From Aspidapion aeneum (Eukaryota; Arthropoda; Insecta; Coleoptera; Brentidae): DNA of 64,000 bases. How positions within the stretch are numbered: the stretch's first letter is position 1; every line of letters begins with the position of its first letter. Location of the stretch: NCBI GenBank assembly GCA_963576565.1, contig OY755044.1:96114752-96178751 (forward strand). Reading direction: 5' to 3'. Below, piece by piece: positions 974 through 38,357 of the stretch. The notes under the pieces are model-generated. The model searched no databases. It was not told the DNA's origin and saw only the letters and a program-made list of their open reading frames with translations. The translations under genes and the position numbers were made by a program.

Positions 974-1610
974 ATCAAACAAGTTTCATGGCTAATCGGG
1001 CAAAAAGGAGTTTTTTGTTTCCCTTATATTTTTCCGTGGGTAGCTTGAAAGCTTAACCTCACGGGGGTCCAAGATCTAATGGACACCTAATAAGTGTTGA
1101 CAGTTAACCGTTTCGTCCTTATGGGACTCCTCAGAACACTGCTGGTCAAGTGACAAATCTTGCGAAGTTAATCAGACAGTTTTGTCTCTAATTAAACGTA
1201 ATTAGTGAGCGAACTATAGCAAGAGGCGCCATCTACCGAGATACGAGAGAAACAAAAAACCGAAAGCAGCGAAACACTGCTATACAATGTCGATCAATGA
1301 AAAGATCGAATGCAAATTAAAGAAAACAACTATAGTCCGTGACCTACGACAGCTCTTTGTCTTTTCAGGCCGGATCAACGCATTTTGCATTTTTACCCGT
1401 CATCAAGACAGTGAACGTCAATCAACGGAATTTTTAAGCCAAACAATACTAACAAACGTGAAATTTCATACCCGTGAATTTAAAAATCAAACAAGTTTCA
1501 TGGCTAATCGGGCAAAAAGGAATATAAGGGAAACAAAAAACTCCTTTTTGCCCGATTAGCCATGAAACTTGTTTGATTTTTAAATTCACGGGTATGAAAT
1601 TTCACGTTTG
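974..1610 (-). mobile_element. Hammerhead retroelement with partly inverted end
   Basis: Insertion flanked by a 13-bp target duplication (TCGGTTTCATAAC at 961-973 and 1611-1623) inside the 3' tail of a LINE. From 974 to about 1523 it is a full minus-oriented unit plus the start of a second. It then switches strand, and 1528-1610 repeats the unit end in plus orientation, giving a local palindrome. There is no protein-coding capacity. Long target duplications and partial inversion are typical of Penelope-like insertions; transposition via RNA is inferred. Confidence 0.75.
1093..1140 (-). ncRNA. Type I hammerhead ribozyme
   Basis: Read on the minus strand, AGTGTT forms stem I with AACACT at the other end. 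The core CTGAGGA fits CUGANGA. Stem II is GTCC with GGAC around a CATAA loop. GAA follows, then stem III ACGG with CTGT around a TTAA tetraloop, and C17 is the cleavage nucleotide. All invariant core positions are present. Self-cleavage is predicted between C17 and AACACT. It is antisense to PRKDC. Confidence 0.9.
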
Positions 1611-1620
1611 TCGGTTTCAT

Positions 1621-2303
1621 AACGTTCTACGTCTTCCGATATCCAATCTCCACTCGTTTCTGTTTGCCCATAATTTATCATCTAAGCCTCTTATTCTTAT
1701 TTCACTGTCTATTCCTTCTCTCCAGCTTCTCCTCGGCCTTCCTCGTTTTCTTCGGCCAGTTGGTTTCCATTGTAATATTTGGTTAGGTAGTCTTCCATCA
1801 TCCATTCTTTGTACATGTCCGCACCACACCAGTTGTTTTGTTCTTATATCATCCACTAAAGTACGTTCACCCACTGTCATAATTTCTCTTGTTCTTTGAT
1901 TTGTAACTCTTTCTCTTTTTGATTTCCCTGCTGCTCTTCTCCAATAGTCCATCTCCGTAGCGGAAAGCATTTTTTCTGTTCTATCCTTGATTGGCCATAC
2001 TTCTGAGCCGTATGTAATAATACTTTTTACAATGGTGTTATATATAAGCTTTTTGTTATGTTTTGATATACTTTGGTCCCAAATCATTCCATTTAATAAA
2101 GTTATTGCTTTTTTTCCTTGTACGTTTCTATCTTTTATAGCTTTGTCTAGTGTTCCGTCAGCTGTAATTTTTAGACCTAAGTATTTATACTCATCACAGG
2201 ACTGAATTCGCTGCCCGGTATTTAAGATTAGATCCTGTTTCGTTCCACCAATACACATATGCTCTGTCTTATTGATATTAACCTCTAGTCCCCACTTATT
2301 GAA
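1621..2303 (-). pseudogene. LINE reverse transcriptase 3' end (RTE-like)
   Basis: C-terminal part of a non-LTR retrotransposon reverse transcriptase. Visible are CIGGTKQDLIL, YKYLGLKI, the YGSEVW block and the C-terminal GHVQRMDDGRLPNQIL followed by a basic RRKRGRPRRSW stretch. It is open for about 213 codons but truncated at its 5' side near 2304, so it lacks the endonuclease and the YXDD active site. Its 3' tail once ended in (TA)n; the remains at 948-960 were separated by the hammerhead insertion at 974-1610. The same family recurs at 43, 51 and 55 kb. Confidence 0.85.
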
Positions 2304-2377
2304 AAAAATGAGCGAGACAAAAAGGCTTTATTTTTAGTTACGAAAACTTGTTGGATTTAGACATTTTTGTTTTTTAG

Positions 2378-2656
2378 GTCGAATATGTTAACGACTATGC
2401 AATATTTCTCAATGTTACAGATTTTTACAATGAAGTGTTTAACAATATTGAACCGAGCAAGTTTAAGTATTGTATTTGCAAAATGATCAATCATTTTATC
2501 ACTAAGTGCATAAACTATCCTTTTGTCAGTGGTTTCTACAAGCTGGTAGCTGTGGCTTTAAGAATTTCTAATAGTCTTACACTGTTTGGTAATGAAAATG
2601 TGTTAGTTAGCCAAGATGTAAAAAATTGCTTTGAAGCGATATCGACATTTATATTG
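2378..2656 (+). CDS. PRKDC: DNA-PKcs (PRKDC) exon A of the window
   Basis: First of 11 consecutive coding exons of DNA-dependent protein kinase catalytic subunit, the giant nuclear PI3K-like kinase that binds Ku at DNA double-strand breaks and drives non-homologous end joining. The exon follows a T-rich tract and AG (2376-2377) and ends before a GTAAGT donor at 2657. It encodes 93 codons in phase 0-0. The segment YPFVSGFYKL is nearly identical to YPHVSGFYKL of the vertebrate protein, in its N-terminal HEAT repeats. The 11 exons join in phase into 1,518 codons without a stop. Upstream exons, including the start codon, lie outside the window. DNA-PKcs is absent from Drosophila but known from other arthropods, so its presence here is not odd. 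I am confident of family and splice sites; transcript evidence would confirm them. Confidence 0.9.
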
Positions 2657-2937
2657 GTAAGTTTTTATCAATTTCAAGTATTATTTTTTAATTTTAAGTT
2701 CGATATAAAATCGTGGCGCGAAAAATACCCATCAAATGAAGATGTATACGCGTCACGATTTTATATCGAACTTAAAATTGATGGGTATCTTTCATAGTCG
2801 CGCCACGATTTATTATCGAACTTAACTTAAGAATATATACTATGCAATTAACGCTATTGTTAAATCTAGACTGCAGTAAACAGAAATCTGCCAAGTTAGT
2901 TTTTACTTTTTAGTGAAAATTTCTAATAAAATCGATA

Positions 2938-3430
2938 TACAGGGTGTTCGGCACATGAACCGTCAAAATTTTTTTGGGATATTGTTGGGCTCATTTGCTA
3001 CCTTTTCAACCTTGGAACTTGGGTCCTAAGAGTCACGGCTAAAGAGATATGAATTTTTAATTTTTTTCTTAAATTACCCAAAATCCCACCTTTAAACTCC
3101 CGTAAGCTTTTTATTAATGTCTGGAAAAGCACCATATTTTTTTTATAATTCTGTAATCTTATGCTACTTCAACTAATTAATAGATTTGTTAAAATTTATG
3201 TACCAAAGGGACATACGAAGTTTTTTATTGAAGAACATTAGTGATTTTGTGAAAGAAAATCAATTTCAAAATTAAAAATCAAAAAAAGTATCGACAATAG
3301 AGAACTTCATTTTCTTTTAAAAACTTCTTTAGTTGATTACCTTTCTAACGGTAAGCTACACAATGATAAAAAAGAACATTTTTGCTTTAAAATACGGATA
3401 TTCCGTCAGAAGGGCGAGACTCGTTCGGAA
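2938..3430. repeat. Probable small transposon remnant
   Basis: Starts with TACAGGGTGTTCGGCAC, the kind of terminus found on many short insect DNA elements, and is followed by AT-rich sequence without coding potential. I could not identify the other end. It lies in the intron between exons A and B. Confidence 0.3.
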
Positions 3431-3572
3431 TTGGTAAGAAAAACAATTTGATGTTTATGACTGTTTTCAGTTTTGGTATGTTTGTTTACGTCGATTTTTT
3501 TTAATTCGGGCATGAATTTAAGTGAATTTTATCAAACTTATTAAAATAACGCAGCCCACGAAAAAGACAACA

Positions 3573-4474
3573 ATGCCGCGAACGTGTAGTGTTGTTGGTT
3601 GTCGATCCAACTATAAAACTGAAACCGAATATGTGTCAACTTTTAATTTGCCAGTGGATAAACAAATGCATAAAATTTGATTGCGAAAAATTCCTAATGA
3701 TTTAAGTATCTTAAAACGTCCACAAGTTTGCATCAAACATTTTCCTAACGAGTAGGTTATTTGGTTTGATAAGTGTGTTGTAAATGGAGAGTGTTAAAAA
3801 TTGTTAAAGGAAAGAAATGAGTGTTAAAAATGTAATACCTAAGTAGACAACCTGTATCTACTGTTCGAGTAGCTGATGTCGAGAGGCAACAACTGGAAAC
3901 TGCAATACAAGAAAGTCTTGAAACACTTTGAGCTCATAAGAAATCAAAAGTTTTATCAAATATTGAGGACATTTCAAAATGTTATTGTTCTAATACTAAA
4001 ATAAACAAAAATTGGATTTTTACCCAAGAACGTGACATAGTCTGCCTGTGCCTGATGACATTTTTGAACAACAATTCATCACTGTTAGCATCTCTAGTTG
4101 TTGAGGGAAATCTGTCATTTTTTGTAAATGTTAACAATGTGTCCATACCAAAAAACAAACTTCCAAAAAAAGTTGGAGTTTTATTTTTGGACAGCACCGA
4201 TACACTTGAAGAGCTAATGCAGTTTATTGAAATGAAAGTTGCAAATGGGAAAGAATTGGTAAAAGATAAGATTGATCAAGTAATAGACATCCTTAGTAAC
4301 ACTTTCGATAGTGAGAGTGAAAAATGTGTTCAATTGTCATTTCTTATTGAACAATTAGGTCTCTTAAAAAGGTCACCTGAGAATCGAAGATATTGTGGAT
4401 ACACTTTAATGTTGACTTCATCTTTGTTTATCCAGTCATCCAGTGCATACATGTCAAAAAGCATAATCGTTTAG
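3573..4474 (+). pseudogene. THAP-domain (P-like) transposase remnant
   Basis: At 3573 an ATG opens MPRTCSVVGCRSNY, then FNLP and further on QVCIKHF: the C2CH pattern of a THAP zinc finger (C-x4-C, later C-x2-H). Stops interrupt it at about 3679 and 3753. A second open stretch, 4055-4474, ends in FLIEQLGLLKRSPENRRY and SSAYMSKS, like the middle of insect THAP/P-family transposases (FLIEQLGLL then SSAYR). The catalytic core is not recognisable. It is a dead DNA transposon, or a gene fragment captured by one. The family call is good at superfamily level only. Confidence 0.65.
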
Positions 4475-5021
4475 TGTCTGCTAATAAATCTTTGAATAAG
4501 AACACCGACAAAGATGATGACACTCAAAGAAAAATTTAAAAACTTAAAGTTTAGGTTTGTGATGTCCAATTTTAAAAGACTTGTATAGATTTGAAGTAAC
4601 TAATGATATTATGTACCTAATATACCTGAATATATTAGAGTGCAAATTTTATATAATTTTTTATTTTATAGATTCAGTTTTCTTATCTATAATAAACACA
4701 TACATCAGCAAAATATATTTTTTTAATTTTTGCCTATATGAGAACAACATTTTTTTGTCAATTTATTTAAATTGTGTAAAAACAGATAATATATTAAGCA
4801 ATACAATAAGAATCCTGGAACTCCTAAGATCACGTGACCGCCGACTTGCTTATAACGCGCCATGGCCGGTCTTTATCGTTGGCTGCGTTATTTTATTAAT
4901 CTATTCTTTTGTCCGTTATCGATCTGTCAAAAAAAATTTGGCAAATTTATTATACTATTAATGCAGTTGAATTTATGAATAGTTTGATCCTACTTTATAC
5001 TTTATGTATTAATTTTTTTAG

Positions 5022-5160
5022 GAAATTATTCAAAAAATGAAGCAGTTTAAAGACGAACTATTAATATCTTGCCTTTATGTGTTACTTGAGGTGCCAGTTG
5101 TTTTTATTACCCCCATTATTATGGATTGTGTTTCGGTTTTTCTTAACATATTTGAACTTG
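5022..5160 (+). CDS. PRKDC: PRKDC exon B
   Basis: The acceptor is TTTTTTTAG just before 5022 and the donor is GTAAGA at 5161. It enters in phase 0 and leaves in phase 1. The translation has KMKQFKDELLISC, which matches KMKQYKDELLASC of vertebrate DNA-PKcs directly downstream of the exon A match, so order and spacing agree. This is an all-helical HEAT-repeat part of the N-terminal solenoid, with no catalytic residues. No start codon is expected because it is internal. Confidence 0.88.
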
Positions 5161-5348
5161 GTAAGAATTTATGTTGACATTATTTTAGTTTTACTTTAGT
5201 TTTTATTTCTAACAGTCAGTCATTTTACACTTTCGTTTTGAGGTACTGAGGATGTTTTTTTAATTTTTTAATATGTAGCTTAATTTACAGAATGCTGCCC
5301 AGGCCAATCTCACTCGTCTTTGTTTTCCTTTTTAGTTTAATTTGTCTC

Positions 5349-5424
<76 letters not shown>

Positions 5425-6840
5425 GGCATCTTAACCTATTTTGTTTATATGGGTGATTCTATGAAAATTGAGTAATATGATGTCTCTATGCAAAAAAAAT
5501 GTGTTTTCCGGCAGACCTTTGCCCCATAAAAAATAATTTTAACTTTATCTTAATTTCATTCTTCATCATAAAACATTTCATATTAAGGTTTGTCAAAAAA
5601 TGTTGAAAACATGTCTCACGTAGAGAAGTGACAGTTACGTCAATATGTTAGTTTTTATTTTCGAAGAAGTTATGGTTAGAGAAAACTTGTGAAAATGTTC
5701 AAAAATGGTAAAAGAATAAGTTTGACAGTCGATAGATTTTGACACGTTTGACAAGGGACAGTTACGTCAAAATGCTGGTTTTCCAAAGATCTTTCAAACA
5801 AGATATCACCCATTAGGCTTTTTGTTTATGACAACAAACTTGATAATTTTGACACAAACTGAAAAACAACGGTTTGGCAGTCAATAGCTTTTGACAGATT
5901 TGACATACACAACTTTGATTTATGTCAAAATGTTAGTTTTTCAAAGACCTTTACAACGAGATATTATTCGAAAGACATTTTAATTTATAAATTTGAGGTT
6001 GATCACCCGTATGCCGCTTTTTAGTGTAGGAGCGGCACACCCGCCATTTCATAAAATAAAATAAAATCTCTTGAGGTTATCGATCACTGCCAAATATAGT
6101 TTAGTTATCTGTTATAGTTCACACGATATTTCGGTAAACTCGGACTTTTGGGACACCCTGTATATTACAATAAACGGTCTCGGCATTCGGTATTCGAGCT
6201 AGGTTAAAGGAAGAACCTCTTAAACCTTTTTTTGTTACCAGTTGATAGCGTTGCGTTACGTTACAGTTTCGATAATATTTTCAGTTATCTCAGGTTAGTT
6301 AAAACGAAATACGTTATAACATAAATACATGTTCAAAGAATCAAAAAATGAAGCCCTCATAGCTGGCTTTGGAAACAATGGCTAATTTAAATTCGCGGAC
6401 GCGAATTTTCAAGTGCGCAGGCATGTGTTGTTTCATGTAGGCCCACAGCTGCCATGTGGATGGAGGCCATCTTTGTTGCTTATTTACGTTTTGCGGTGTT
6501 TTGCGTTTGTCGTGTAATATTATGTTTTTTCCTGTAAAAATGTAAAAAATAATTCATCTAAAACGTGTGCGGTTTTTAAAAAAGTGTCCTGGAGAAGTAA
6601 GGAAGTGCCATGCTATAGGTAACTACGTGTATTTTACTTCATAATTTGTTAATACAGTTAAGAGTGGTTTATAAATGCTATGGTGTCCACAATAAATCTG
6701 CACAATTAGTTTTAGAAAAACTACAATTTTAATCCACAATTTGATTCATTTTCACCCAATGAACTAGTTTTTAGAAAAAAATAATTCACATAACCCTAAA
6801 CTTTTGACAATTGTCAAATAATGTAGTGACGTATCGGAGT
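5161..6840. other. Intron with (AT)n and diverged tandem repeats
   Basis: Holds an (AT)n run at about 5350-5420. From about 5580 to 5960 a stretch repeats the phrases GACAGTTACGTCAA and GTTAGTTTT with TTTGACA several times, an old tandem duplication. A CACCCTGTATA terminus lies at 6150-6165. No coding similarity is seen. Confidence 0.5.
5348..5420. repeat. (AT)n microsatellite
   Basis: Uninterrupted AT dinucleotide run of about 70 bp between GGT and TTTGGGCATC. Confidence 0.95.
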
Positions 6841-6842
6841 AT

Positions 6843-7770
6843 GGGCGAGTTCGTAAAGGCATCGATGAGCTCATCGATGACAACAATCAAGTTTTTAAAT
6901 TAATCAGTGCAATTCGTTGAAATCCATCGGGTTCGTAAATTATCTGATGAATTTCACCAAGGCACCAATTGATGGCTTCAATGCTCACCGACCCTGAGAG
7001 TCGTGTTTTTTGTGTTTTTTTTTCGGCTGTGTAATTTTATATCTTTTTTGTTGTTTTTTTTGTTAACTGCTCCACAGTGTGGTAAACAAAGTTTCGATGG
7101 TCATCTTACAAGATATAAATAGTGACTCAAGATTCGGATGATGAAGATCTGGCGTTAATTTCAATTTTTTTATTTATATACGAGTTAAAATTTTTATAAA
7201 ATCATTTACATTTTACAAACTTATTATTAATTTATTCTAAAGAGCAGAAAAACTTAATCTCGAGAGCCCTTTACCATTATTGTTTTATGCTAAGTTTATA
7301 TGCTAATTTGACTTTTTAAAATAAATGAGTTTTAGTTGTTTTAAATTAGAGTAAATTTTTCAAGTAAAATTTCTCATCCTAATCCTAACCTAATCTATAC
7401 AAAGGCACAAAAGCCTACCTTAACAAAAGCTAAAAAAAAACTTTATAACATTAAAACACTTATAAAATATGAAAAAACAAATCCTATTTTTTATTTTGTT
7501 TTTAAAATTTTGATATCATCAGACCGTGGCATGCCAGGATTGAGGGTTACGTTGAAAATGTTGTTTCCATGTATTAATGCAGAGAATCTTTTAGAAAATA
7601 AATCAAAATCGAAAAAAGCGAGGTTCAGATATCTGATTTATCGCGTTCTTTTTTATTTTCTGGTGTTCATCGGACTCACCGAATGAAAAGGTCAAATGAA
7701 CGTCAAACGTCATATGTCAAAAAACCGATGTAATCGGTGAGCAAAATTAGATTACTTTACAAACTCGCCC
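6843..7770. mobile_element. Non-autonomous DNA element with GGGCGAG ends
   Basis: Terminal inverted repeats GGGCGAGTTCGTAAAG (left) and, on the other strand, GGGCGAGTTTGTAAAG (right), flanked on both sides by TAT. The 928-bp interior has no open reading frame of note and is AT-rich. The 3-bp duplication would fit a Harbinger-like element, but the superfamily is not established. Confidence 0.65.
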
Positions 7771-7946
7771 TATGTTCTAAAACCATCAAAACTAACGCCT
7801 GCGCAGTAACTAAAATCCTGTCTACCGGAAAAAGGAACATTAATAATTAAATAGGGGTCCTGGCGTCAAGTATCGCATGTAAGAATGCAGTATGCCCCAT
7901 ATTTATCCTATAACGTATTTGGTTAAAATTTTTCTTATTTTTTTAG

Positions 7947-8087
7947 CTAGAAGCTATATTGCCTTGGCAAATAAGGCTTTAACAACGCTAGAGAGGTGGC
8001 AAAAAGACATTCCGCATGATGTTTATGAAAATTTTATTATTCACGTTGTGCCTAGCCTAGATAACTATTTAAGGAGCAAATCATTGG
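7947..8087 (+). CDS. PRKDC: PRKDC exon C
   Basis: The acceptor TTTTTTAG ends at 7946 and the donor GTATGT starts at 8088. Phase is 1 in and 1 out. The peptide contains ALANKALTTLERW and VPSLDNYLRS, matching the vertebrate stretch with PLAEVGLNALEEW and LPCLDGYLKT. It joins without a gap to the next exon: the residues after LDNYLRSKSLG align with the poorly conserved Lys-rich linker that follows LDGYLKT in vertebrates, so no exon appears to be missing although the next intron is almost 5 kb. Confidence 0.88.
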
Positions 8088-8494: not shown

Positions 8495-9170
8495 TACAAG
8501 ACGCTAGCGCTACCAAGTCCACTTCCAATCCCTGGCTTCGCATGCGTAGATCTACCAATATTATTTACCTCATGTATTAGAATCGATGTACAGGGTGATT
8601 TTTACTTGAATGATTCTAACCACATGAAAATAGAAAGTTTCAAAAACCTAACCTAACGAAACCTAATCAGATCTAACCGAACCGAACCAAAGCAAACTAA
8701 ACCAATATTTAAAAAAAAAAAACTTTCCTGACTTCCTACCTGGGATGCTAGAGGATGTGAATCCGAACCGGACCGTACCGAACCGAACCTATCCAAACCT
8801 AACCCTACCCAACTAAACCTAATTAGCAGTACGTGTTGTAGTTTAGTTTGGTTAGGTTAGGTTCGGTTCAGTTTAGTTAGGTTCGGTTTGGTTCGGTTCG
8901 GATTCACATCCTCTAGGATCCCGGGCAGGAAGTCAGGAAAGTTTTTTTTGACAAAAATTATTGGTTCAGTTTCCTTCGGTTCGGTTAGATTTGATTAGGT
9001 TTTGTTAGGTTAGGTTTTTGAAACTTTCTATTTTCATGTGGTTAGAATCATTCAAGTGAAAATCACCCTGTATGCATCTATTCTAAGACATGAGGTAAAT
9101 AATATTGGTAGATCTGCGCTTGCGAAGCCAGGGATTGAAAGTGGACTTGGTAGCGCTAGCGTCTTGTTGG
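8495..9170. repeat. Palindromic foldback element with telomere-like repeats
   Basis: Two near-perfect arms of about 330 bp centred near 8830. Inner termini TACAGGGTGATTTTTACTTG (8589) and their complement (ending 9072) look like transposon ends, but the palindrome continues outward to AAGACGCTAGCGCTACC and its complement. Near the centre the arms consist of degenerate CCTAAC/GTTAGG-like units mixed with AACCGAACC. No coding capacity. Confidence 0.8.
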
Positions 9171-9590: not shown

Positions 9591-9763
9591 GTGAATATAT
9601 AAACTAATAGATATAGAAAAATAATTAAATAGCTAAGCTAGCTTCGACGACTGCGCCACCTGCATTAGGAACGACGGAAGGTTGGCCGCCATGTCTTCAC
9701 AGAAGTACAAGCGGTCACCCCTAGAGGTCGTTATGGTAAACAAGCATATTGGGTTACTAGATT

Positions 9764-13354: not shown

Positions 13355-13387
13355 GTAAGTACCGAAAGAGTCCGAGAACCGACTAAA

Positions 13388-13705
13388 AATTGGCGGTGTT
13401 GTCAAATTCATTTGAACATTATATAGCAAAACGGTTATATTTGGGTTCAACTAATGAAGGTTTGAAATGGTTTTTATTGTATAGGATAGTGCTGTCACTA
13501 CACGTTTTGATACTACACTTTTAAGGAGCGCTCTGAAGTTTTGTAAATAGTATTAGTAACCGCCTGTGTTTTTTTCATTGGCTTAAAAAATGTGTTTGAA
13601 GGTAAATGGCAACAATGTTCCCTAAATTGAATGCTTTGTTTAGTCAGTCCGCAGCTAGAAAGATTTCTTCTGGGCCGTCGCACTCTGTTAGGAATAACTC
13701 ATGAT
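13388..13705. repeat. Tandem duplication, first host copy
   Basis: Unique-looking intron sequence repeated almost exactly at 14822-15137 (TTGGCGGTGTTGTCAAATTC, GAACATTATATAGC and TTAGGAATAACTCATGAT landmarks). The offset is about 1,430 bp. The duplicated unit also includes the following hammerhead copy. Confidence 0.85.
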
Positions 13706-14200
13706 CAAACAAGTTTCATGGCTAATCGGTCAAAAAGGAGTTTTTTGTTTCCCTTATATTTTTCCGTGGGTAGCTTGAAAGCTTAACCTCACGGGGGTCC
13801 AAGATCTAATGGACACCTAATAAGTGTTGACAGTTAACCGTTTCGTCCTTATGGGACTCCTCAGAACACTGCTGGTCAAGTGACAAATCTTGCGAAGTTA
13901 ATCAGACGGTTTTGTCTCTAATTAAATGTAATTAGTGAGCGAACTATAGCAAGAGGCGCCATCTACCGAGATACGAGAGAAACAAAAAACCAAAAGCAGG
14001 GAAAAACACTGCTATACAATATCGATCAATGAAAAGATCGAATGCAAATAAAAGAAAACAACTATAGTCCGTGACCTACGACAGCTCTTTGTCTTTTCAG
14101 GCCGGATCAACGCATTTTGCATTTTTACCCGTCATCAAGACAACAACAACACAGTGAGCGTCAATCAACGGAATTTTTAAGCCAAATAATACTAACAAAC
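13706..14200 (-). mobile_element. Hammerhead retroelement copy (-)
   Basis: Minus-oriented unit starting CAAACAAGTTTCATGG, preceded by ATAACTCATGAT (13694-13705). It is cut at 14200, where the TCTG-array repeat begins, so its second target duplication is missing here; the complete insertion is the duplicate at 15138-16080. It contains an intact ribozyme. Confidence 0.8.
13823..13870 (-). ncRNA. Type I hammerhead ribozyme
   Basis: Same 48-nt sequence and fold as the copy at 1093-1140: 6-bp stem I, CTGAGGA core, 4-bp stem II, GAA, 4-bp stem III with TTAA loop, C17. All core residues are intact. Antisense to PRKDC, intron D-E. Confidence 0.9.
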
Positions 14201-14822
14201 TCCAGACTAAATTACCTTTTGTTTGATACCACACAAGCCATGTTTTGACTTAAAACTCAAATTTTTAAAATCTACCCCCACCCTTAAAAAAAGCAAAAAC
14301 TAAAATGTTATTTGCTAAACTCCGGACTCAATTACCTTTCGTTTGATATCACACACGCCATATTTTCACTTAAACTCTAATTTTTGAAATATACCCCCAC
14401 CCTTTTTTTAAAATAAATTAAAATGTATTTTGTTTAACTCCAGACTCAATTACCTTTCGTTTGATATCACACACGCCATATTTTCACATAAACTCTAATT
14501 TTTGAAATCTACCCCCACCCTTTTATTTGGTTTTTGTTCGGTGGATTTTGTTCATTTTTAAATGGGACCATCTCGACCCAAGACCCAGCCTAGGTACCAA
14601 ATTTCATTAAAATCGGCCAAGCGGTTTTTGAGTTATGCGCGTTGGTCGTTACAGACATACAGACAGACATACAGACAGACAGACGGCGCAACAAAAAAGT
14701 TTCAAAATCATCTGAAACGCAAAGATATATAAAAATTTTTGAAATCGGAGCAACTTTTTTTTCTCGAAAAAAGTAGGATCACCATAGCTCACACTACTAC
14801 AGTATAGTATATGTGTGAGCTA
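14201..14822 (-). repeat. Hairpin-ended TCTG-array repeat, copy 1 (-)
   Basis: Repeat family with these parts in plus order: TAGCTCACAC hairpin, TTTTTCGAGAAAAAA, GTTGCGCCG, (TCTG)n array, CGACCAACGCGCATAACTC block, then internal subrepeats ending GGTAATTGAGTC, and a second hairpin near GGCAGAGTATT. This copy is minus-oriented and truncated at the subrepeats. It has no real gene; the long Gln-Thr-Asp-Arg frames come from the TCTG array. Confidence 0.85.
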
Positions 14823-15137
14823 ATTGGCGGTGTTGTCAAATTCATTTGAAAATTATATAGCAAAACGGTTATATTTGGGTTCAACTAATGAAGGTTTGAA
14901 ATGGTTTTTATTGTATAGGATAGTGCTGTCACTACACGTTTTGATACTACACTTTTAAGGAGCGCTCTGAAGTTTTGTAAATAGTATTAGTAAACGCCTG
15001 TGTTTTTTTCAGTGGCTTAAAAAATGTGTTTGAAGGTAAATGGCAACAATGTTCCCAAAATTGAATGCTTTGTTTAGTCAGTCCGCAGCTAGAAGATTCT
15101 TCTGGGCTGTCGCACTCTGTTAGGAATAACTCATGAT
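14822..15137. repeat. Tandem duplication, second host copy
   Basis: Second copy of 13388-13705, ending in the 12-bp ATAACTCATGAT that is the left target duplication of the next element. Confidence 0.85.
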
Positions 15138-15254
15138 CAAACAAGTTTCATGGCTAATCGGGCAAAAAGGAGTTTTTTGTTTCCCTTATATTTTTCCGTG
15201 GGTAGCTTAAAAGCTTAACCTCACGGGGGTCCAAGATCTAATGGACACCTAATA

Positions 15255-15302
15255 AGTGTTGACAGTTAACCGTTTCGTCCTTATGGGACTCCTCAGAACA
15301 CT
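15255..15302 (-). ncRNA. Type I hammerhead ribozyme
   Basis: Identical in core and stems to the copy at 1093-1140. Left partner of the inverted dimer; antisense to PRKDC. Confidence 0.9.
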
Positions 15303-15881
15303 GCTGGTCAAGTGACAAATCTTGCGAAGTTAATCAGACGGTTTTGTCTCTAATTAAATGTAATTAGTGAGCGAACTATATCAAGAGGCGCCATCTACCG
15401 AGATACGAGAGAAACAAAAAACCAAAAGCAGGGAAAAACACTGCTATACAATATCGATCAATGAAAAGATCGAATGCAAATAAAAGAAAACAACTATAGT
15501 CCGTGACCTACGACAGCTCTTTGTCTTTTCAGGCCGGATCAACGCATTTTGCATTTTTACCCGTCATCAAGACAGTGAGCGTCAATCAACGGAATTTTTA
15601 CGCCAAATAATACTAACAAACGGGTAAAAATGCAAAATGCGTTGATCCGGCCTGAAAAGACAAAGAGCTGTCGTAGGTCACGGACTATAGTTGTTTTCTT
15701 TTATTTGCATTCGATCTTTTCATTGATCGATATTGTATAGCAGTGTTTTTCCCTGCTTTTGGTTTTTTGTTTCTCTCGTATCTCGGTAGATGGCGCCTCT
15801 TGCTATAGTTCGCTCACTAATTACATTTAATTAGAGACAAAACCGTCTGATTAACTTCGCAAGATTTGTCATTTGACCAGC

Positions 15882-15929
15882 AGTGTTCTGAGGAGTCCCA
15901 TAAGGACGAAACGGTTAACTGTCAACACT
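15882..15929 (+). ncRNA. Type I hammerhead ribozyme, sense to PRKDC
   Basis: Plus-strand copy with intact core: AGTGTT stem I, CTGAGGA, GTCC/GGAC stem II with CATAA loop, GAA, ACGG/CTGT stem III with TTAA loop, C17, AACACT. It would be present in PRKDC pre-mRNA, in the intron between exons D and E. Pairing with the neighbouring inverted copy may hide it. Confidence 0.9.
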
Positions 15930-16092
15930 TATTAGGTGTCCATTAGATCTTGGACCCCCTTGAAGTTAAGCTTTCAAGCTACCCACGGAAAAATATAAGG
16001 GAAACAAAAAACTCCTTTTTGCCCGATTAGCCATGAAACTTGTTTGATTTTTAAATTCACGGGTACGAAATTTCACGTTTATAACTCATGAT

Positions 16093-17222: not shown

Positions 17223-17330
17223 ACTATAGTATAGTATATGTGTGAGCTAAAATAAGAAACATATGATTTATAAATCTCGTATATCAGTAAATCATCTCTT
17301 TATCACAGGAAACTTAACAAAGTACGATTT

Positions 17331-18689: not shown

Positions 18690-19200
18690 CAGATCTTCTG
18701 TTAACTTTCGCTGGAAAGAACTATTTCCAAAACTATGGCTACGATACATGGATGACACATTTATTATATGTCCGGAAAATGATGACGAACTGCAGAATTT
18801 TCTCCATCATGTGAACGGTATTCGACCAACAATCAAACGCACAATGGAAATTTAAAAATATTCGGCCTTACCTTTTTTGGATGTTCTTGTCAAAACAGAA
18901 ACATTCAAACCACTGTAAATAGGAAACCTACACACACGGGACAGTAACTACATTTTAAGTCTAATCATTCTGTTACTACAAAACAAGGAGTTATGAGAAG
19001 TTTGTCTTCAAGAACCGTGAATTTACTACAGAAATTAACAATATTAAAAAATACTTTTAATAAGCTCAACGATCTCTAAAATTAAAAACAAACGCAATTT
19101 CTCAAAATATTAATCCGTTGTGTGGTATTAATTTTCCATATGTTTACGGGATTTCCAAAGACATAAGACGGAGAGCTAAACACTATAATATATGTCTACT
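18690..19200 (+). pseudogene. Penelope-like element reverse transcriptase remnant
   Basis: Decayed frame with PKLWLRYMDDTFIICPEN, NFLHHVNGIRPTIKRTMEI, stop, then (frameshifted) PFLDVLVKTE and RKPTHTG, VTTKQGVMRSLSSR, and from about 19118 INFPYVYGISKDIRRRAKHY. This order (YMDD active site, TMEI...LPFLDVLV, RKPTHTG..LH, LPYV.G.S..IRR) is diagnostic of Penelope-like retroelements. The GIY-YIG endonuclease expected downstream is not visible. Penelope-like elements of many animals carry hammerhead ribozymes, so this is a candidate source of the hammerhead repeats. It is inactive here. Confidence 0.8.
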
Positions 19201-21404: not shown

Positions 21405-21582
21405 TAGATTATTTATCAAACGTGAAATTTACTACTACTACTACTAAATTTTACGTTTGTTAGTATTATTTGGCTTAAAAATTCCGACGATTGACGTGAT
21501 AAGGTCTGTGGATCTTAGACTGCTTAAAAGATTGAGCACAGGAAAATATCAGAAAATCGTTTATAATTTAGCAACTAAAAAT

Positions 21583-23034: not shown

Positions 23035-23659
23035 CCAGTTGTTAAAGTTGCTTGCCTCTAGTATAGGTATAGCTAATGAACTGCTCATCCTAATGATTCT
23101 ATTTCTACAGCTTACGTTACTTTTATATTAAAAACTATTTTGCAATTGTGCTCTTTTCCTATACTTGCTTCTGATCTAATTTTGGTGTAACGAGCCCATA
23201 ACCTGATAAGATCTGTGGATCTTAGACTGCTTAAAAGATTGAGCACAGGAAAATATCAGAAAATCGTTTATAATTTAGCAACTAAAATTCAATACTTTTT
23301 ACAATTCAAAGTCTTATTGAAGTTAACATACTTGACAAATTGCCAAAACAAATATTCATTTATGTGACACCTTAATATGACGCTCACGTGTCTTGATGGC
23401 GGGTAAAAACGCAATAAGCGTTGATCTGGCTCGAAAGGCAGAAGAGCTGTCGTAGGTCACGGACTAGTTTGTTTCTCTTTATTTGTAATCGATGTTTTCA
23501 TTGATCGATATGTATAGCAGTTTATTTTCTCCTGCTCTTATTCTGGTTTCTCTCGTATCTCGGTAGATGGCGCTTCTTGCGATAGTTTTCTCTCTATTTA
23601 CATAGGATTAGAGACAAAACCGTCTAATTAAGTTCACAAAAGTGTCACATTGTCCAAGC

Positions 23660-23719
23660 AGTGTTCTGAGGAGTCCCATGAGGACGAAACAGTCCCATAA
23701 GGACAAAACAGTCAACACT
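23660..23719 (+). ncRNA. Expanded hammerhead ribozyme variant, sense to PRKDC
   Basis: AGTGTT and AACACT still pair as stem I, and the core CTGAGGA, stem II GTCC/GGAC (loop CATGA) and GAA are intact. Stem III is changed by an internal duplication of a stem-II-like block (GTCCCATAAGGAC), giving 60 nt in place of 48. Stem III would be only AC/GU plus an extra hairpin. Activity is uncertain. Confidence 0.7.
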
Positions 23720-23848
23720 TATTAGGTGTCCATTAGATCTTGGACCCCCGTGAAGTTAAGCTTTCAAGCTACCCACGGAAAAATATAAGAGAAACAAAAA
23801 CTCCTTTTTACCCGATTAGCTACGAAACTAGTATGATAGATTATTTAT

Positions 23849-24260: not shown

Positions 24261-24294
<34 letters not shown>

Positions 24295-25742: not shown

Positions 25743-25756
25743 TAAGTAAATAAGTT

Positions 25757-26118
25757 AAACAAGTTTCATGGCTAATCGGGCAAAAAGGAGTTTTTTGTTT
25801 CCCTTATATTTTTCCGTGGGTAGCTTGAAAGCTTAACCTCACGGGGGTCCAAGATCTAATGGACACCTAATAAGTGTTGACAGTTAACCGTTTCGTCCTT
25901 ATGGGACTCCTCAGAACACTGCTGGTCAAGTGACAAATCTTGCGAAGTTAATCAGACGGTTTTGTCTCTAATTAAATGTAATTAGTGAGCGAACTATAGC
26001 AAGAGGCGCCATCTACCGGGATACGAGAGAAACAAAAAACCAAAAGCAGGGAAAAACACTGCTATACAATATCGATCAATGAAAAGATCGAATGCAAATA
26101 AAGGAAATTTCACGTTTG
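25757..26118 (-). mobile_element. Short hammerhead retroelement copy (-)
   Basis: Flanked by a 14-bp target duplication TAAGTAAATAAGTT (25743-25756 and 26119-26132). It begins AAACAAGTTTCATGG and ends TTTCACGTTTG, with an internal deletion after GATCGAATGCAAATAAA. It is the cleanest insertion of the family and shows that the unit moves as a discrete element. Confidence 0.85.
25873..25920 (-). ncRNA. Type I hammerhead ribozyme
   Basis: Same 48-nt fold with intact core and stems as at 1093-1140; antisense to PRKDC, intron E-F. Confidence 0.9.
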
Positions 26119-26132
26119 TAAGTAAATAAGTT

Positions 26133-26994: not shown

Positions 26995-26998
26995 ATAT

Positions 26999-30762: not shown

Positions 30763-32636
30763 TACTTTTACTAAAGCTTTTGGATAGTCATTCACTTCTT
30801 GCTTGCCGCTGCTGTAGTTCTTGATACATATCGACTCATAAATTAGAAAGTCCGCCATTTTGGATCGGCCATTTTAATGTTTTAAGGAACTAAAAATTAG
30901 ATTGAATGACCTTAATCAGTGCAAGTTTTTGAATTTGAGGCAAATTGGTTTACAAATAAACATGTCCGCCATTTTAAATCCGACATGTTTATTTCTTAAT
31001 AAAAAAATTTCAAACTTATATGGTCACCGAAACTCGATACATATATCAAGTGTCAAGTCTCTAGCTCATCAGAAAGTATCTGAAATAGCTGTCGCAAGAT
31101 TTGAAACAGAAATGGGTATGGAAACACGCATACAGAATCAAGTAAAATAAAACCATTTAAAAAAAGAGGGGACGTAAATTATACTTTTTTAAAATAGCTA
31201 TAAGATATGTTAACTAGGTAGCAAAGAAATATCGGTGTACTCGGCGGAACTTTTTTTATAATTCTAGCTAACTTAAAAATTTTAATATTTTTTTAATCAA
31301 AAATACTTTTTCATAAAACTTTGTATTATAGGAAGTCTACAAATAAGTGGTGTGTTAACAATTATTGCAAAATAAAGTACCTACGTGCTCCCTTAATATC
31401 CATGCTGACACCGTCTAAATTTGACGTCTGACAAATAACGAATAAAAGTTTTTCTGTCACAGTTTTAAAAACACCTAATTTAATAAGCAGGGTGTAAGCA
31501 AAGCCAACTTTGCGCTTATGCTAATATATATGTGGGTTTAAATAATAAAATTCTTATGTTGCCTTGCGGCCGTATCTATAGGTAACATTTTAAAGACATG
31601 TGTGATTAGTTTAAACTAAATTTGTTTTACTATTATTGGCGCCCTAATGTAGTTATTTGTCCTTATGTGCAGCGGAGGTTAACCCAAAAATAAGTTTTTT
31701 GTTAAACGAATTTAATATCTCTAAGACTCCTAGTTTTGACATGACAAGCTGTCATCCTTGAGCGTTTTGAGACATTCAAGATGGCGGCCGGTACGGGAAT
31801 AAAAAATTGTAAAAAAATAGTTTTTAAAACATAAAACCAACAGTGGGAGTAATCAATTACTATTGGAATCTTATTAAACATAGCAAAAGCTCCGACCCTC
31901 ATCCCTTTAGAAACGTAGTCAAAATGGCGCCGCCATCTTGGATTTTTGACTATTTTTTTCCTTTATTAGCCTTTTAAAAGTATTTATTTTTTGGGAAAAT
32001 CTGTAGAAAAGAAATTGAAAGCACATTACGAAACCTATCAAACGAGATACCTACAAACTACTTAAGTACCACCCTTGCAAAGATATATAAACAAAATCCT
32101 TCGCCAAAAAATATTTAAAATTTTTTAAAAAAAGTGAAGGTTTACAAGAATGCTTGTTACAATTTCACCTGCATATATGGGGTGACCTTGTGACAAAAGA
32201 AACGTAGCATAAATGCCCAAATACGGCGTCTACCCGATCGAGATTGTTGCAAAAATAAACTTTAGTTCAGAATAATTTAAAAAAAACTAAATTCCTTAAG
32301 CACTTCTGTCACACAGTTTTCTTTATAAATAAAATTAAATATTTATTTCTTTAAAAGAAAACATTATAAGTTAATCTTTTTGTAATGTCGCATGTGACCA
32401 ATTTCTATATGGGCGAGTCCCTGGCGGCCTTCTTTAGTATCGTGGCATCGCTACAAACACCAAAATATTGTCACAAATTCATCCCGCATTTTGTTTAAAT
32501 TTTATTATGTGCTTCACGAGCTTTGTTCGTCAGTGAATAAACAAAACTATAGCGAACACCACCCACAGCTTATATATTGGCTACATAAAATCGTTTCTGT
32601 TGGGTAAAATGAAGTATACGGAAAACGTAAAATATT
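30763..32636. other. Long intronic stretch, nothing identified
   Basis: About 1.9 kb without recognised repeat ends, RNA gene or protein similarity. It contains several CATTTT/GGCGGC phrases (for example 31780-31935) but no clear repeat unit. Confidence 0.3.
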
Positions 32637-33230
32637 GTCACGAGGGAGTTTTAACGTGACGTAACACAGTTTAAGTTAGGTTTTATGGTTTTATTTAACA
32701 ATACTGATAATTACTACTTACATTAAATACATCTTGCTAACAAAATGCGTATCCTCCAGCTACGCTCGACTTCTGACTAGTACTTGTCTTCACTGTTAAC
32801 TTGTACGTCTGGGACGTTACGTTCTCAGCTTACAACTTACTGCTAAACTCTTTTGTAGATGCTTTTATTAAAAACCATTAATAGGTTATCGAGATGTGTT
32901 TTGTTTCCTGTATAAACATCATCGATGACCGGTCAATCGCTTATGGTTTTTATTCCGTATACAGTTTATTACACGTTTTAATACAAATTAAACTATATAC
33001 AGAAGTTCATTTCCTTAGAATGTTTAGGGTTAATGTGCACTTGCTTATAAACGTGCCATTTAGTTAATGGGACATTATTTTCTATCCTGACGTTTGTCGA
33101 CTTATCCAACGTTGACTGTGTTCTAGACGGAACCGGGGGCTTCTTTGGAGTCCATGATCATGTGTTTCGTGGTGATAGCTTAATACACTTTTAAATTGTA
33201 ACCGACTAAATGACGAGAAGACAGTCTTGT
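32637..33230. other. Possible LTR-like segment
   Basis: Begins TGTCACGAGGGAG after AATAT, just like the end of the LTR at 26994 read on the other strand, and may end at TTGTCACA near 33229. No target duplication is seen and no internal region, so I only suggest a truncated LTR. Confidence 0.25.
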
Positions 33231-33279
33231 CACATAGTGACCACATTCTACGGTACATTTATTTATTTTTGCATTTTAG

Positions 33280-33839
33280 CGATGCATTAGACAAAATTTT
33301 TGGAGTCCTTCATTCTGCAATATTACTCAAACCAGAAAACATAATTCTAATTGATAAACTACTAGCGCTGTTGCCGATGGTCAGATCGACTAAAATATGG
33401 AAATTTATAATTGAATTTTACTGCATTACACCCGTAAATACCGATTTGACAAATTCTATTAAAATTTTTATGAACAACAATAATGAGAATCATAAAGAAA
33501 TTATCAAAGAAGTTTTATATATATGTTTGGATAAGAAGAAAACATTTGAAGAAAAGAAAAAACTTTCTGAAAATATAGTAAAGCATGTATTTATCTACTG
33601 TGAACAAAAGACGATTGAAAGATTTTGGGAGGAAAATATTGAATCTATAATAAATAAAATCGATAACGACTCGGATCTCGGGCTTGTTCTGGTTTACTTT
33701 GAGGTGTTGGAATCAATGTTTTTACGACTGGATCTAAGTCCACAACATATTGAAAATATAGCTGCTCATAATTCGAATCTAATATGTGTTAAGCAAGCTT
33801 TTGAAGTTCTTTTGAACGCCCTAAAAAGGCCTTTAAGAG
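33280..33839 (+). CDS. PRKDC: PRKDC exon G
   Basis: The acceptor TTGCATTTTAG ends at 33279 and the donor GTAAGT starts at 33840. Phase is 2 in and 1 out. It is helical and rich in Lys and Glu. VYFEVLESMFLRL aligns with vertebrate YYKILDVMYSRL, and the end, KQAFEVLLNALKRPLRG, runs on smoothly into exon H (vertebrate KTLIKLCYDAFTENMAG then ENQ). That alignment removes my first suspicion that an exon was missing between G and H. Confidence 0.88.
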
Positions 33840-34023
33840 GTAAGTTTAGTCCTAACAAAACGTTAATAAATAATTCTGAGAAAAGATCGTATGATATAGC
33901 ATTATCTTTAATTATTTGGTTTCCTTTTTGTCCTGCGCCTGACAGGTAGCTTCACAGAGTGGCTAACACGCAAGTGTAACAAAAGTTTGCACACCTCCCA
34001 TTTCCCGTACGATTTTTGTTTTT

Positions 34024-34770
34024 TTAACTTACACATATACTATACTATAGTAGTGTGAGCTTTGGTGATCCTATTTTTTTCGAGAAAAAAAAAGTTGCTC
34101 CGATTTCAAAATTTTTTATATATCTTTGCGTTTCAGATGATTTTGAAACTTTTTTGTTGCGCCGTCTGTCTGTCTGTCTGTATGTATGTATGTCTGTCTG
34201 TCTGTCTGTATGTCTGTAACGACCAACGCGCATAACTCAAAAACCGCTTGGCCGATTTTAATGAAATTTGGTACCTAGGCTGGGTTTTGGGCCGAGATGG
34301 TCCCATTTAAAAATGAACAAAATCCACCGAGCAGAAACCAAATAAAAGGGTGGGGGTTGATTTCAAAAATTAGAGTTTATGGAAAAATATGGCGTGTGTC
34401 ACATCAAACGAAAGGTAATTGAGTCTGGAGTTCAACAAAATACATTTTAATTTATTAAAAAAAAAAGTGTGGGGGTATATTTCAAAAATTAGAGTTTAAG
34501 TGAAAAAATGGCGTGTGTAATATCAAACGAAAGGTAATTGAGTCCGAAGTTTAACGAAATACATTTTAGTTTTTGTTTTTTTTAAGGGTGGGGGTAGATT
34601 TCAAAAATTTGAGTTTAAGTCAAAACATGGCTTGTGTGGTATCAAACAAAAGGTAATTTAGTCCGGAGTTGAATAAAATATATTTTAGTTTTTATTTATA
34701 TTAGCTCACACGTACACTATAACTATAGTACCTAGTGTGAGCTTAGGGGCCCATATATTGACAGAGTATT
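34024..34770 (+). repeat. Hairpin-ended TCTG-array repeat, copy 6 (+)
   Basis: Complete plus copy with a degraded 5' hairpin (AACTTACACATATAC) and a short TCTG/TATG array; three subrepeats present. Confidence 0.87.
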
Positions 34771-34889
34771 AATTTTGCTAGCCTAAAATGACAGTCATTT
34801 AAAGCCAAAAAAGGGATTTCTTATTATTTTAAATTAATCTTTAGTTTCCGAGATATGATTTTTTTTAAATAAAATTAAACTTTTCTTAT

Positions 34890-35830
34890 GTTTTGTTTGA
34901 CGTTCAAAATCACTGAACGCAATCAAGGTCGTGCGAAGACAATTTTTCATAAATTCAATTTTTTATGGGCAAACCTGAGTTTCACCTTCTTTAGGTCATC
35001 TGATATCAACTCTAGGTAAGTGCAAAACATGTTTTGTTAAAGCCTAAACACTTATGTTGAGACGGTTTTTTTTTTGTAAAAATGCTAGGGATTTTGCAAA
35101 GTCCATGGATTTAAATGAATTTTTTCACTTTAATACAGATGATTTTGCTGCTCCTCAATCGTGAAGGAGAGGATATGTCATGCGCGCCATCTAATTTAGG
35201 TTCTGATATTTTAGAAACGAAAGTTTCAGAAGTTGAAAAAAAGTGAATGAATGCGTTGAAACCATAAATGTTTGGTTGTGCTTGGCATCTCGATCATTTT
35301 GAGGTATCTCAAAATGCCAAATTTTATAGGTTATATCAGTATGGATCACTGTTTAACAAAATTGAAAAAAATTAACCGATATTTACGTGTGATACCTCAA
35401 AATGCTCGAGGCACCAAGCACAACCCAAACATTACCTTAATGGTTTTAATGCATGCTTAATTCACTTATTTTAACTCTTAAAACTTTTATTTTGAGGTAT
35501 TACAACTTAAATCAGATGACGAACGTGGCATAAACTCTGCTCCGCGATTTTTACCGAGGCAGCACTAAAATCATCTCTAGTGGAGTGAGAAAATTCGCTT
35601 GAATCATGGACTTTGTTAACAACTGGCATTTTTACAAAAAATCATAACGCCGACGTTTCAATAAAAATGAAAAAAAACCGTCTCGGCATAAATGAATCAA
35701 TGAAACGTGTTTTGGTGTTTTGCACTTACCTAGAGTTGATATCAGTTGCCTACAGAAGGTGAAATTCAGGTTTGCTCATATAAAGGAGAGTTCATGAAAA
35801 ATTATCTTTGCACGCCCCTGATGGTGCTCA
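34890..35830. repeat. Foldback element, ~950 bp
   Basis: Imperfect palindrome centred near 35355. GCAAACCTGAGTTTCACCTTC with CTAGGTAAGTGCAAAAC on the left answers GTTTTGCACTTACCTAG and GGTGAAATTCAGGTTTGC on the right. The core TTTGGTTGTGCTTGGCATC ... GGCACCAAGCACAACC is a tighter hairpin. No gene. Confidence 0.75.
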
Positions 35831-35914
35831 GTGGTTATCTAGGGCACAATGACATACAAGGTTTCAAAAAGCTAGCATGTGTCTCTTAGCTAATTTGGTG
35901 GCTATAGGTTAAAC

Positions 35915-36524
35915 CAAGGCCAACACAAAAATAGAGGCCACGACCCTGAAAAAATCAGCTGTTCTCCCGGGGCTGAATTTTACATTGGGTCTTATGGGAG
36001 GTCAGACGTTTTTTTATGATTTTTTCAAAATGGCACTACAGATTTCCGCAAAATTTCAGTGAAATATTCTCAGACACCATCCCGATATTCCACCAAAGGT
36101 TTGTAAGGAAGCAACATGATTAAAAGGTTAAAATCTTCAAGATTTAGCATTCCTTATTTTGAATTCAAATTACCCGCCATGTACCACATGCCAACTGTTA
36201 TATTTGACATGTATTTGACTTTGTCATCTGTGATTGTCACATTCGCTTCTGCTTTAAACTTATTTTTTGTGTGAGCTAATGAAGCGGCTATGAAAAATTA
36301 AGGATTACTATACATTTAAAAAAAATTGTTCTGCCAGAATAAAGTAAAAACAATCTCAAAAATGGCTTTATTTAAAAAAAATCAAATGTTCATGAACCGT
36401 CATTCCAACTTCAATATTTTAAAGACAATCAGCTGTGTCGTAACCTGACCATCAAAAAAAAATCAGCCCCGGATGAGACGTCAACAAAGTGGAGGATCGT
36501 GGCCCGTCCGTTCTGATAGCCCTG
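35915..36524. mobile_element. 7-bp-TSD MITE, intact copy
   Basis: 610 bp, CAAGGCC...GCCCTG, with 7-bp duplication GTTAAAC (35908-35914 and 36525-36531). It shows the uninterrupted form of the element at 9764-11188. No coding capacity. Confidence 0.85.
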
Positions 36525-36884
36525 GTTAAACCAGGTAGAAACGCCAAACAAAAAAATAAAAAGTACAAATTTAAAGGAATAATAATAATATAATATATTG
36601 AAAACTAAAAAGAAATTTAAAAAAATTAGAAATCTCATTTTGTAGCTTAGCTGACTGTTATTTTAAGCTAATAAAATTTTTTGGAAAAAAATCGTACGGG
36701 AAATGGTAGCTGTGCAAAACTTTCGAATTTTTTTTACACTTGTATTTTATCCACTCTGTGAAGCTACCTGTCAGGCGCAGGACGACAAAGAAAGTAAACT
36801 TCAAAAGAGGATGAATGAAGCTATATCACACAACTTTTTTTGGAACTAACTTTTAGGCAAATCAAAAAGAATGAAAAAATAGGT

Positions 36885-37022
36885 GAAACCTATTTTTTAT
36901 ACTACGAGTGAAACGACAGCGAACCAAGAAAAGTAAGCCCATGGCGGGACGAAAACGTCCACCGGTCTATATGAACGTAGTTTCCTTGGTTCGCTGTCGT
37001 TTCACTCGTATTATAAAAAATA
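36885..37022. repeat. Small perfect-arm palindrome
   Basis: CGAGTGAAACGACAGCGAACC and its complement flank a ~65-bp centre containing GACGAAAACGTCC. It lies directly before the hammerhead array. Confidence 0.75.
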
Positions 37023-37145
37023 AGTCAAACAAGTTTCGTGGCTAATCGGGCAAAAAGGGAGTTTTTTTTGTTTCCCTTATATTTTTCCGTGGGTAGCCTG
37101 AAAGCTTAACCTCACGGGGGTCCAAGATCTAATGGACACCTAATA

Positions 37146-37193
37146 AGTGTTGACAGTTAACCGTTTCGTCCTTATGGGACTCCTCAGAACACT
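37146..37193 (-). ncRNA. Type I hammerhead ribozyme, array unit 1
   Basis: Intact 48-nt ribozyme, identical in core and stems to the copy at 1093-1140. Confidence 0.9.
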
Positions 37194-37665
37194 GCTGGTC
37201 AATGTGACAAATCTTGCTAAGTTAATCAGACGGTTTTGTCTCTAATTAAATGTAATTAGTGAGCGAACTATAGCAAGAGGCGGCATCTACCGAGATACGA
37301 GAGAAACAAAAAACTAAAAACAGCCGAAAACACTGCTATACAATATCGATCAATGAAAAGATCGAATGCAAATAAAATAAAACAACTATAGTCCGTGACC
37401 TACGACAGCTCTTTGTCTTTCAGGCCGGATTAACACAGATTGCATTTTTACCCGTCTTCAAGACAGTGAGCGTCAATCAACGGAATTTTTAAGCCAAATA
37501 ATACTAACAAACGTGGAATTTCGTACCCGTGAATTTAAAAATCAAACAAGTTTCGTGGCTAATCGGGCAAAAATGGGGGTGTTTTTTTTGTTTCCCTTAT
37601 ATTTTTCCGTGGGTAGCCTGAAAGCTTAACCTCACGGGGGTCCAAGATCTAATGGACACCTAATA

Positions 37666-37713
37666 AGTGTTGACCGATAACCGTTTCGTCCTTATGGGAC
37701 TCCTCAGAACACT
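37666..37713 (-). ncRNA. Hammerhead ribozyme, array unit 2, weakened stem III
   Basis: Core, stem I and stem II are intact. Stem III reads ACGG and CGGT around TTAT, so one of its four pairs is lost (G-G). It is probably slower or inactive compared with unit 1. Confidence 0.8.
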
Positions 37714-38357
37714 GCTGGTCAATGTGACAAATGTTGCTAAGTTAATCAGACGGTTTTGTCTCTAATTAAATGTAATTAGTGAGCGAACTATAGCAAGAGG
37801 CGCCATCTACCGAGATACGAGAGAAACAAAAAACTAAAAGCAGCCGAAAACACTGCTATACAATATCGATCAATGAAAAGATCGAATGCAAATAAAAGAA
37901 AACAACTATAGTCCGTGACCTACGACAGCTCTTTGTCTTTCAGGCCGGATCAACACAGATTGCATTTTTACCCGTCTTCAAGACAGTGAGCGTCAATCAA
38001 CGGAATTTTTAAGCCAAATAATACTAACAAACGTGGAATTTCGTACCCGTGAATTTAAAAATCAAACAAGTTTCGTGGCTAATCGGGCAAAAAGGGAGTT
38101 TTTTTGCTTCCCTTATATTTTTCCGTGGGTAGCCTGAAAGCTTAACCTCACGGGGGTCCAAGATTTAATGGACACCTAATAAGTTTCACCAATTTGTTCA
38201 TTCTGTGTGATTTACCTTGTATCTTGTAGTCAGTTTGTTCTACTTTGTGTCAGGCAAGCCACGCTGACGAAGGAAATGCCTTTTTCCGAAACACCGGTGT
38301 CCGTGGTTGACTATTATACCCCTATGAAGTTGCCTTTTATACCTTGTTAACTTTTAG

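Follow-up and report, generated by a model that had tools for sequence, protein, structure and literature searches.

What carries a short, non-coding repeat with a complete hammerhead motif through a beetle genome? The question is raised by a stretch of 64,000 nucleotides from Aspidapion aeneum (Coleoptera, Brentidae; contig OY755044.1 of assembly GCA_963576565.1, positions 96,114,752 to 96,178,751), called the window here, in which a 48-nt type I hammerhead motif occurs in exact form at six places within copies of one dispersed repeat. The analysis of the insertion ends suggests that the repeat is a non-autonomous hammerhead retrozyme bearing the two-end signature of Penelope-like elements (PLEs), and that it probably owes its copying and its insertion in trans to a Penelope-like reverse transcriptase (RT)/endonuclease.

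The hammerhead motif and the repeat unit

The motif has the order CTGAGGA, stem II, GAA, stem III and C17, and shows the type I hammerhead features in its sequence: the core CUGANGA/GAA/H17 and three stems, open at stem I. The initial annotation of this DNA had proposed six complete type I motifs with all core residues present, which is borne out by the sequence and by the full Rfam type I model (Hammerhead_1) at 1093-1140, 13823-13870, 15255-15302, 25873-25920 and 37146-37193 on the minus strand and at 15882-15929 on the plus strand. Its suggested check with Rfam covariance models succeeded in part. The full model matches all six motifs with 24.7 bits each (E 0.13), but none reaches the gathering score of 34, at which the window gave no matches, so Rfam alone would miss them. 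The 27-nt core is present in the window seven times exactly and once with two mismatches, while 100 shuffles gave none. Two copies described as weakened or rearranged proved to be so: a stem III pair is broken at 37666-37713 (minus strand), and the hammerhead at 23660-23719 contains an internal duplication. The latter belongs to an older, diverged, A-ended copy (E5, 23372-23837, plus strand). A copy taken for dead at 836-883 does have a broken hammerhead, but it starts at 837 (837-884), within an old copy on the plus strand (641-952) that is 69-88% identical.

The six exact motifs are not six insertions but represent four insertions and one segmental duplication. The motifs at 15255 and 15882 belong to opposite arms of a single insertion, and the motif at 13823 lies in copy E2 (13704-14200, minus strand), which duplicates the arm with 15255 as part of a segmental duplication; the duplicated stretches, 13387-14199 and about 14821-15620, are 97% identical.

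The unit consensus, derived from 34 full units, is 515 nt long (u1-u515, numbered from the cut site) and has a GC content of 0.40. The longest ATG frame, also in the concatenated unit, is 23 aa, in agreement with the earlier statement that the host repeat has no coding capacity. Because it is without an open reading frame, and thus without the single frame for RT and GIY-YIG that characterises PLEs, the repeat is not itself a PLE and is only handled like one. Some loci have the units in tandem, a single arm containing as many as five complete or almost complete ones, and many loci hold at most one unit between two arms.

By its anatomy and the features tested, the repeat fits the metazoan non-LTR (long terminal repeat) retrozyme kind described in PMC7229834. 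It has in common with that kind a single type I hammerhead per non-coding unit, tandem copies from dimers upwards, a GC content below 45-50%, target duplications that are longer than 4 bp when present, and co-occurrence with PLEs. The described kind has no LTRs, primer binding sites or polypurine tracts; long direct terminal repeats were not seen in the sampled loci, and primer binding sites and polypurine tracts had no dedicated search. The unit of about 515 nt differs from the 150-450 bp given there for animal repeats, although circles of up to more than 1000 nt are allowed.

In the assembly (1,286,157,303 bases, 149 contigs), the 27-mer core was found 6648 + 6822 = 13,470 times with at most two mismatches, compared with 0 for the reversed pattern used as a control. 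The 25-mer just upstream of the insertion end named A below occurs 14,925 times (control 0). Exact core-pattern scans of viral and prokaryote contig collections gave no match. This genome-wide count, which had been proposed as a check, stands together with the target site duplications and the empty-site paralogues in the window, and confirms the view of a mobile repeat. For further analysis, 80 loci (L numbers) were sampled in addition to the window. The first 60 are clusters around 100 exact cores, all within 11.4 Mb of the start of contig 1, and are young copies by selection; the other 20 were taken from places of the A-proximal 25-mer outside the 60 and were unselected for the ribozyme.

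Paired insertion ends and the link to Penelope-like elements

The outward ends of the insertions lie mostly at two sites of the unit, A (u123-129) and B (u155-162), about 35 nt apart, where the borders are trimmed by the target duplications. Both ends read ...GTTTG, plus or minus a few bases. The A-rich or simple-repeat 3' tail by which long and short interspersed nuclear elements (LINEs and SINEs) are recognised is absent, and the target duplication begins at or a few nucleotides past ...GTTTG.

Three insertions in the window illustrate the arrangement. E1 (974-1610) consists of an A-ended arm on the minus strand at the left border, head to head with a short B-ended arm on the plus strand at the right border. 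Its 13-nt target site duplication (961-973 and 1611-1623) is supported by the border repeat and by empty-site paralogues, as three other places in the window have the flanking sequence in uninterrupted form, with 95% identity to the two flanks when joined. The insertion E3/E4 (15138-16080), which carries the motifs at 15255 and 15882 in its arms A and B, respectively, has two long head-to-head arms, with A at the left and B at the right border, and a 12-nt duplication (15126-15137 and 16081-16092). In E6 (25757-26118), an A-ended arm is joined to about 15 nt of a B arm, recognised by eye, and the duplication is 14 nt long (25743-25756 and 26119-26132).

Exact border repeats of at least 11 nt occur in 35 of 74 elements, whereas shuffling of the flanks gave them in 10 of 715 pairs; the 16-nt repeat of L033, counted among the 35, is an artefact inside the element. 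The duplications of 27 two-armed insertions that have an exact border repeat, with E6 included and L012 and the first insertion of L065 left out, range from 10 to 17 nt with a mode of 12 nt (14 insertions). The duplicated sequence is 85% AT, compared with 65% for the window.

All insertions with two outward ends have head-to-head arms. The pairing of opposed ends by script gave 39 pairs, of which 38 were A+B, one was A+A and none was B+B. L052 was dropped as two insertions, since a 13-nt target duplication belongs to its B-ended copy alone, the A-ended neighbour being a separate old fragment, which leaves A+B in 37 of 38 pairs; E6, with its B arm seen by eye, stands outside the 38. If the ends were independent, the chance of 37 or more unlike pairs among 38 would be about 1.4e-10 or less (hand arithmetic). 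Some class assignments depend on the threshold. L086 was classed as B at u142 by threshold only; inspection by eye shows a B tail shortened by 16 nt and a target duplication of 12 nt with one mismatch. L062 and the window array E7 were classed as B at u144 and u148, and by eye both stop at A. The trimmed-border outliers L009 (167), L065 (171), L012 (134, 208) and L033 (101) were judged to be overlaps of the duplication call with AT-rich or element sequence.

This combination is known from PLEs. A purified PLE enzyme was found to cut both strands of DNA and to extend them, with a preference for AT-rich sites; it begins reverse transcription at two neighbouring internal sites, and the sequence that separates these appears in genomes as a 'tail' of 30-40 bp (Frangieh 2024, PMC11167929). 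In rotifer PLEs, one of the inverted pseudo-LTRs (pLTRs) may bear a 31-bp tail, and the target duplications measure 8-10 bp (PMC3846280). The Aspidapion repeat likewise has two adjacent start sites with an optional tail within the 30-40 bp range, and, in the 38 pairs, an inverted head-to-head copy at the 5' side together with a target duplication; tandem copies, short duplications and a type I hammerhead are further likenesses to Penelope/Poseidon PLEs (PMC11167929, PMC3846280).

PLEs are present in the same genome, with at least 91 GIY-YIG matches (150 of 633 candidates scored). One family has an RT + GIY-YIG frame and a minimal type I hammerhead motif, which is followed by two ends, one short and one long, with 38 nt between them. 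Its copies L093 and L100 have both ends, one short and one long each, with duplications of 13 and 12 nt, and L094 has the long end only within the stretch examined; the end rule of the family is thus drawn from three copies, two of them two-ended. This PLE family agrees with the repeat in the one-of-each end rule and in the length of the duplications. The two differ in that the A and B sequences of the repeat are unlike those of the PLE family, and in the distance from the cut site to the first end, which is 124 nt in the repeat and 59 nt in L093-type PLEs. Rfam did not report hammerheads in six PLE loci, where they were assigned by motif and by eye.

Other hammerhead-like motifs were seen in the PLE copies L090, L091, L092 and L096, including CTGAAGAAGGTCTTTAGACCGAAAC (one base different in L091); that of L096 lies inside an open frame, as in the anole PLE. 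A Penelope-like RT fragment is present in the window as well (18739-19058, plus strand); it matches L096 in two stretches, one of 51 aa (49% identity) and one of 55 aa (38%).

PLEs had already been put forward as a strong candidate for the helper of animal retrozymes, on the grounds that both have hammerheads and tandem copies and that they occur together (Cervera and de la Pena 2020, PMC7229834), and according to a 2020 review the repeats of animal retrozymes lack any conserved motif that would reveal their helper retrotransposon (PMC7761336). No description of retrozyme insertion ends was found in the literature at the level of titles and abstract openings, and the two preferred ends with the A+B rule are not described for metazoan retrozymes in the available parts of PMC7229834. 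What is new is that the insertion ends themselves point to PLE machinery, which is structural evidence. The nearly strict pairing of one A with one B also places a constraint on the mode of PLE insertion. The PLE assay of PMC11167929 showed no strand difference in the start site, so strict A+B pairing is not reported in the parts of that paper available. Since a single genome in long contigs offers 13,470 cores, the matter can be put to a count, and purified PLE protein provides a means of testing it.

Template, ribozyme and alternative explanations

The 20 A-anchored loci were compared at the ribozyme cut junction. Seventeen align across it (L083 and L087 with a deletion there), L072 and L079 stop short of it, and L070 reaches about 7 nt past it by eye, its alignment starting at u2; none of the 20 starts exactly at the junction. 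The only 5' ends within about 10 nt of the cut site are those of L063 and of the tandem array E7 in the window (37026-38184, minus strand), which has two full units and a 3' part ending at A (3' border by eye), contains the motifs at 37146 and 37666, and has ACTTATT at both borders, overlapping the unit. A linear self-cut monomer primed at A would yield only about 124 nt, yet the copies cross the junction, and the template was therefore continuous there. The 17 loci rule out the self-cleaved linear monomer as the main template, and judging from these alignments a circle or an uncut multimer would have served instead. The L038 array, in which seven units over two arms have 10 variants in common, favours a circular template. 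In L062 (1352-3413), four tandem units alternate, the first and third as well as the second and fourth being 99.8% alike and all other pairs 98.6-99%, as a dimeric template copied twice would give.

Self-cleavage of the motif after C17 is only predicted. Two co-folded 48-mers give exactly the double hammerhead (-29.4 kcal/mol), and there are precedents for dimeric action in newt and PLE hammerheads (works cited in PMC7761336).

The course of events that we propose as likely is as follows. Tandem units would be transcribed, and the hammerhead, probably as a dimer formed via its palindromic stem III, would cut the transcript into units that are then ligated into circles. The Penelope-like enzyme would cut both target strands and prime one cDNA at A and the other at B, one per strand. 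Both cDNAs would run upstream along RNA that is continuous over the ribozyme junction, sometimes over several units, and the joining of their far ends would produce the A+B head-to-head insertions. A bolder form of this model, which may or may not prove correct, has a two-headed Penelope-type complex copying circular ribozyme RNA, with each cDNA able to circle the same RNA repeatedly, so that all full insertions would be A+B head-to-head pairs. If this is true, an obligate two-site, two-strand rule would be the integration mechanism common to animal retrozymes and their PLE helpers.

As an observation apart from this, the inner joints of several arms (e.g., L011, L016, L018, L033 and L046) lie near u94, beside an A-rich/T-rich run; it was made in loci L009-L068 at unit positions near u86-102, and a reverse-transcription stop is a possible cause.

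Several results weigh against a PLE-mobilised retrozyme with an active ribozyme. On the side of the ends, the older copy L075 is A+A, and 49 ends are unpaired (script classes 30 A and 19 B). Further ends at u196-209 stand before unrelated flanks in L053 (1128-1335, left uncounted by the pairing script), L012 (2332-2447), L039 (60-145) and the window (21442-21496, plus strand); the window fragment covers u142-196, has a short inverted B-side piece just upstream, and its outer end is neither A nor B. These ends perhaps represent a rarer third start site. On the side of the helper, no PLE with a sequence like the A/B region of the unit was found among 12 PLE loci (best BLAST E 0.033), so the helper is not named. 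On the side of the ribozyme, the hammerhead is not the best fold of a lone 48-mer (-8.5 as compared with -9.1 kcal/mol; probability 0.085), and L062 together with L057, whose four units are all unlike one another, fit multimeric or dimeric templates better than a monomer circle. Hammerhead mutants left insertion unchanged in the PLE assay (PMC11167929). The motif is not significantly better conserved than its background: substitutions amount to 5.1% in the motif and 7.4% elsewhere in 18 copies whose loci were picked regardless of the ribozyme, with 91 of 293 windows equally low, and with deletions included the values no longer differ (9.95% and 10.1%). The conservation test, named beforehand in the initial annotation, was thus undecided between motif and background.

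The unlike units of L057 and L062, the hammerhead mutants and the weak, non-significant conservation, with the cut junction crossed in 17 of 20 A-anchored loci and the start of none exactly there, are also what favours the strongest rival, namely that the hammerhead is inert and incidental and that PLE machinery copies uncut multimeric read-through RNA, the ribozyme having no part in spreading. We consider this rather unlikely. The 10 variants found in all seven units and both arms of L038 are what one circular unit would give. The 139 motifs from the sampled loci and the window include 95 exact ones, and among 134 full-length motifs, mostly from loci chosen for an exact core, the core is intact in 126 and the core with all stems in 109. 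Stem III is still the perfect palindrome ACAGTTAACTGT in several of the older copies, and a paired change is seen in stem I of L080.

It is less probable still that a LINE-type enzyme, for example of the RTE/jockey-like kind present in the window, mobilises the repeat and that the inverted arms arise by L1-style twin priming. LINE-like RT frames do exist here (window 43132-43980, RVT_1), and L1 twin priming likewise gives inverted 5' pieces and target duplications (PMC2837659). However, two internal sites are preferred as outer starts, which have ...GTTTG and no A-rich or simple-repeat tail, A and B are joined in 37 of 38 pairs, and the GIY-YIG PLEs of the same genome follow the same end rule. 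A miniature inverted-repeat (MITE-like) DNA transposon or a satellite DNA carrying the hammerhead by chance is very improbable, for although the inverted arms resemble terminal inverted repeats and tandem units occur, the duplications are anything from 10 to 17 nt long, the insertions differ from one another in arm length and inner joint, one-armed copies exist, and the sampled copies are dispersed insertions, most of them with few units.

Related systems and other features of the window

Among other hammerhead repeats, the pDo500 satellite of Dolichopoda cave crickets (PMC2837043) is similar, by its description, in its unit of near 500 bp, its 49-nt hammerhead with a stem III mostly of G-U wobble pairs, and the double-hammerhead model proposed for it. 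It differs in that it is described as satellite DNA, and its insertion ends are undescribed in the available parts of that paper. Plant LTR retrozymes (PMC4918200, PMC7229834) are likewise non-autonomous, carry a hammerhead and have proposed circular RNA intermediates; they differ in their type III hammerhead, LTRs, 4-bp duplications and Gypsy helper.

Matches to miRNA families at 1454-1609 and 15526-15658 were taken as hairpin artefacts, as they overlie the inverted arms of E1 and E3/E4. A further hairpin was seen at 8715-8950, and a separate 55-nt inverted repeat (87%; 36888-37025) directly adjoins the 3' end of the array E7. RTE/jockey-like ends with TA-rich 3' tails are found at 44013-44393, 51273-51677 and 55586-55686, and these three are the empty-site paralogues of E1. 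The window also contains a BEL/Pao-type retrotransposon (44992-50427) with an 1811-aa open frame (Peptidase_A17, DUF5641, DUF1759). An open frame at 27451-29394 matches DNA-PKcs CC1/2 (PF20502, E 6.1e-40) and is an exon of a host gene.

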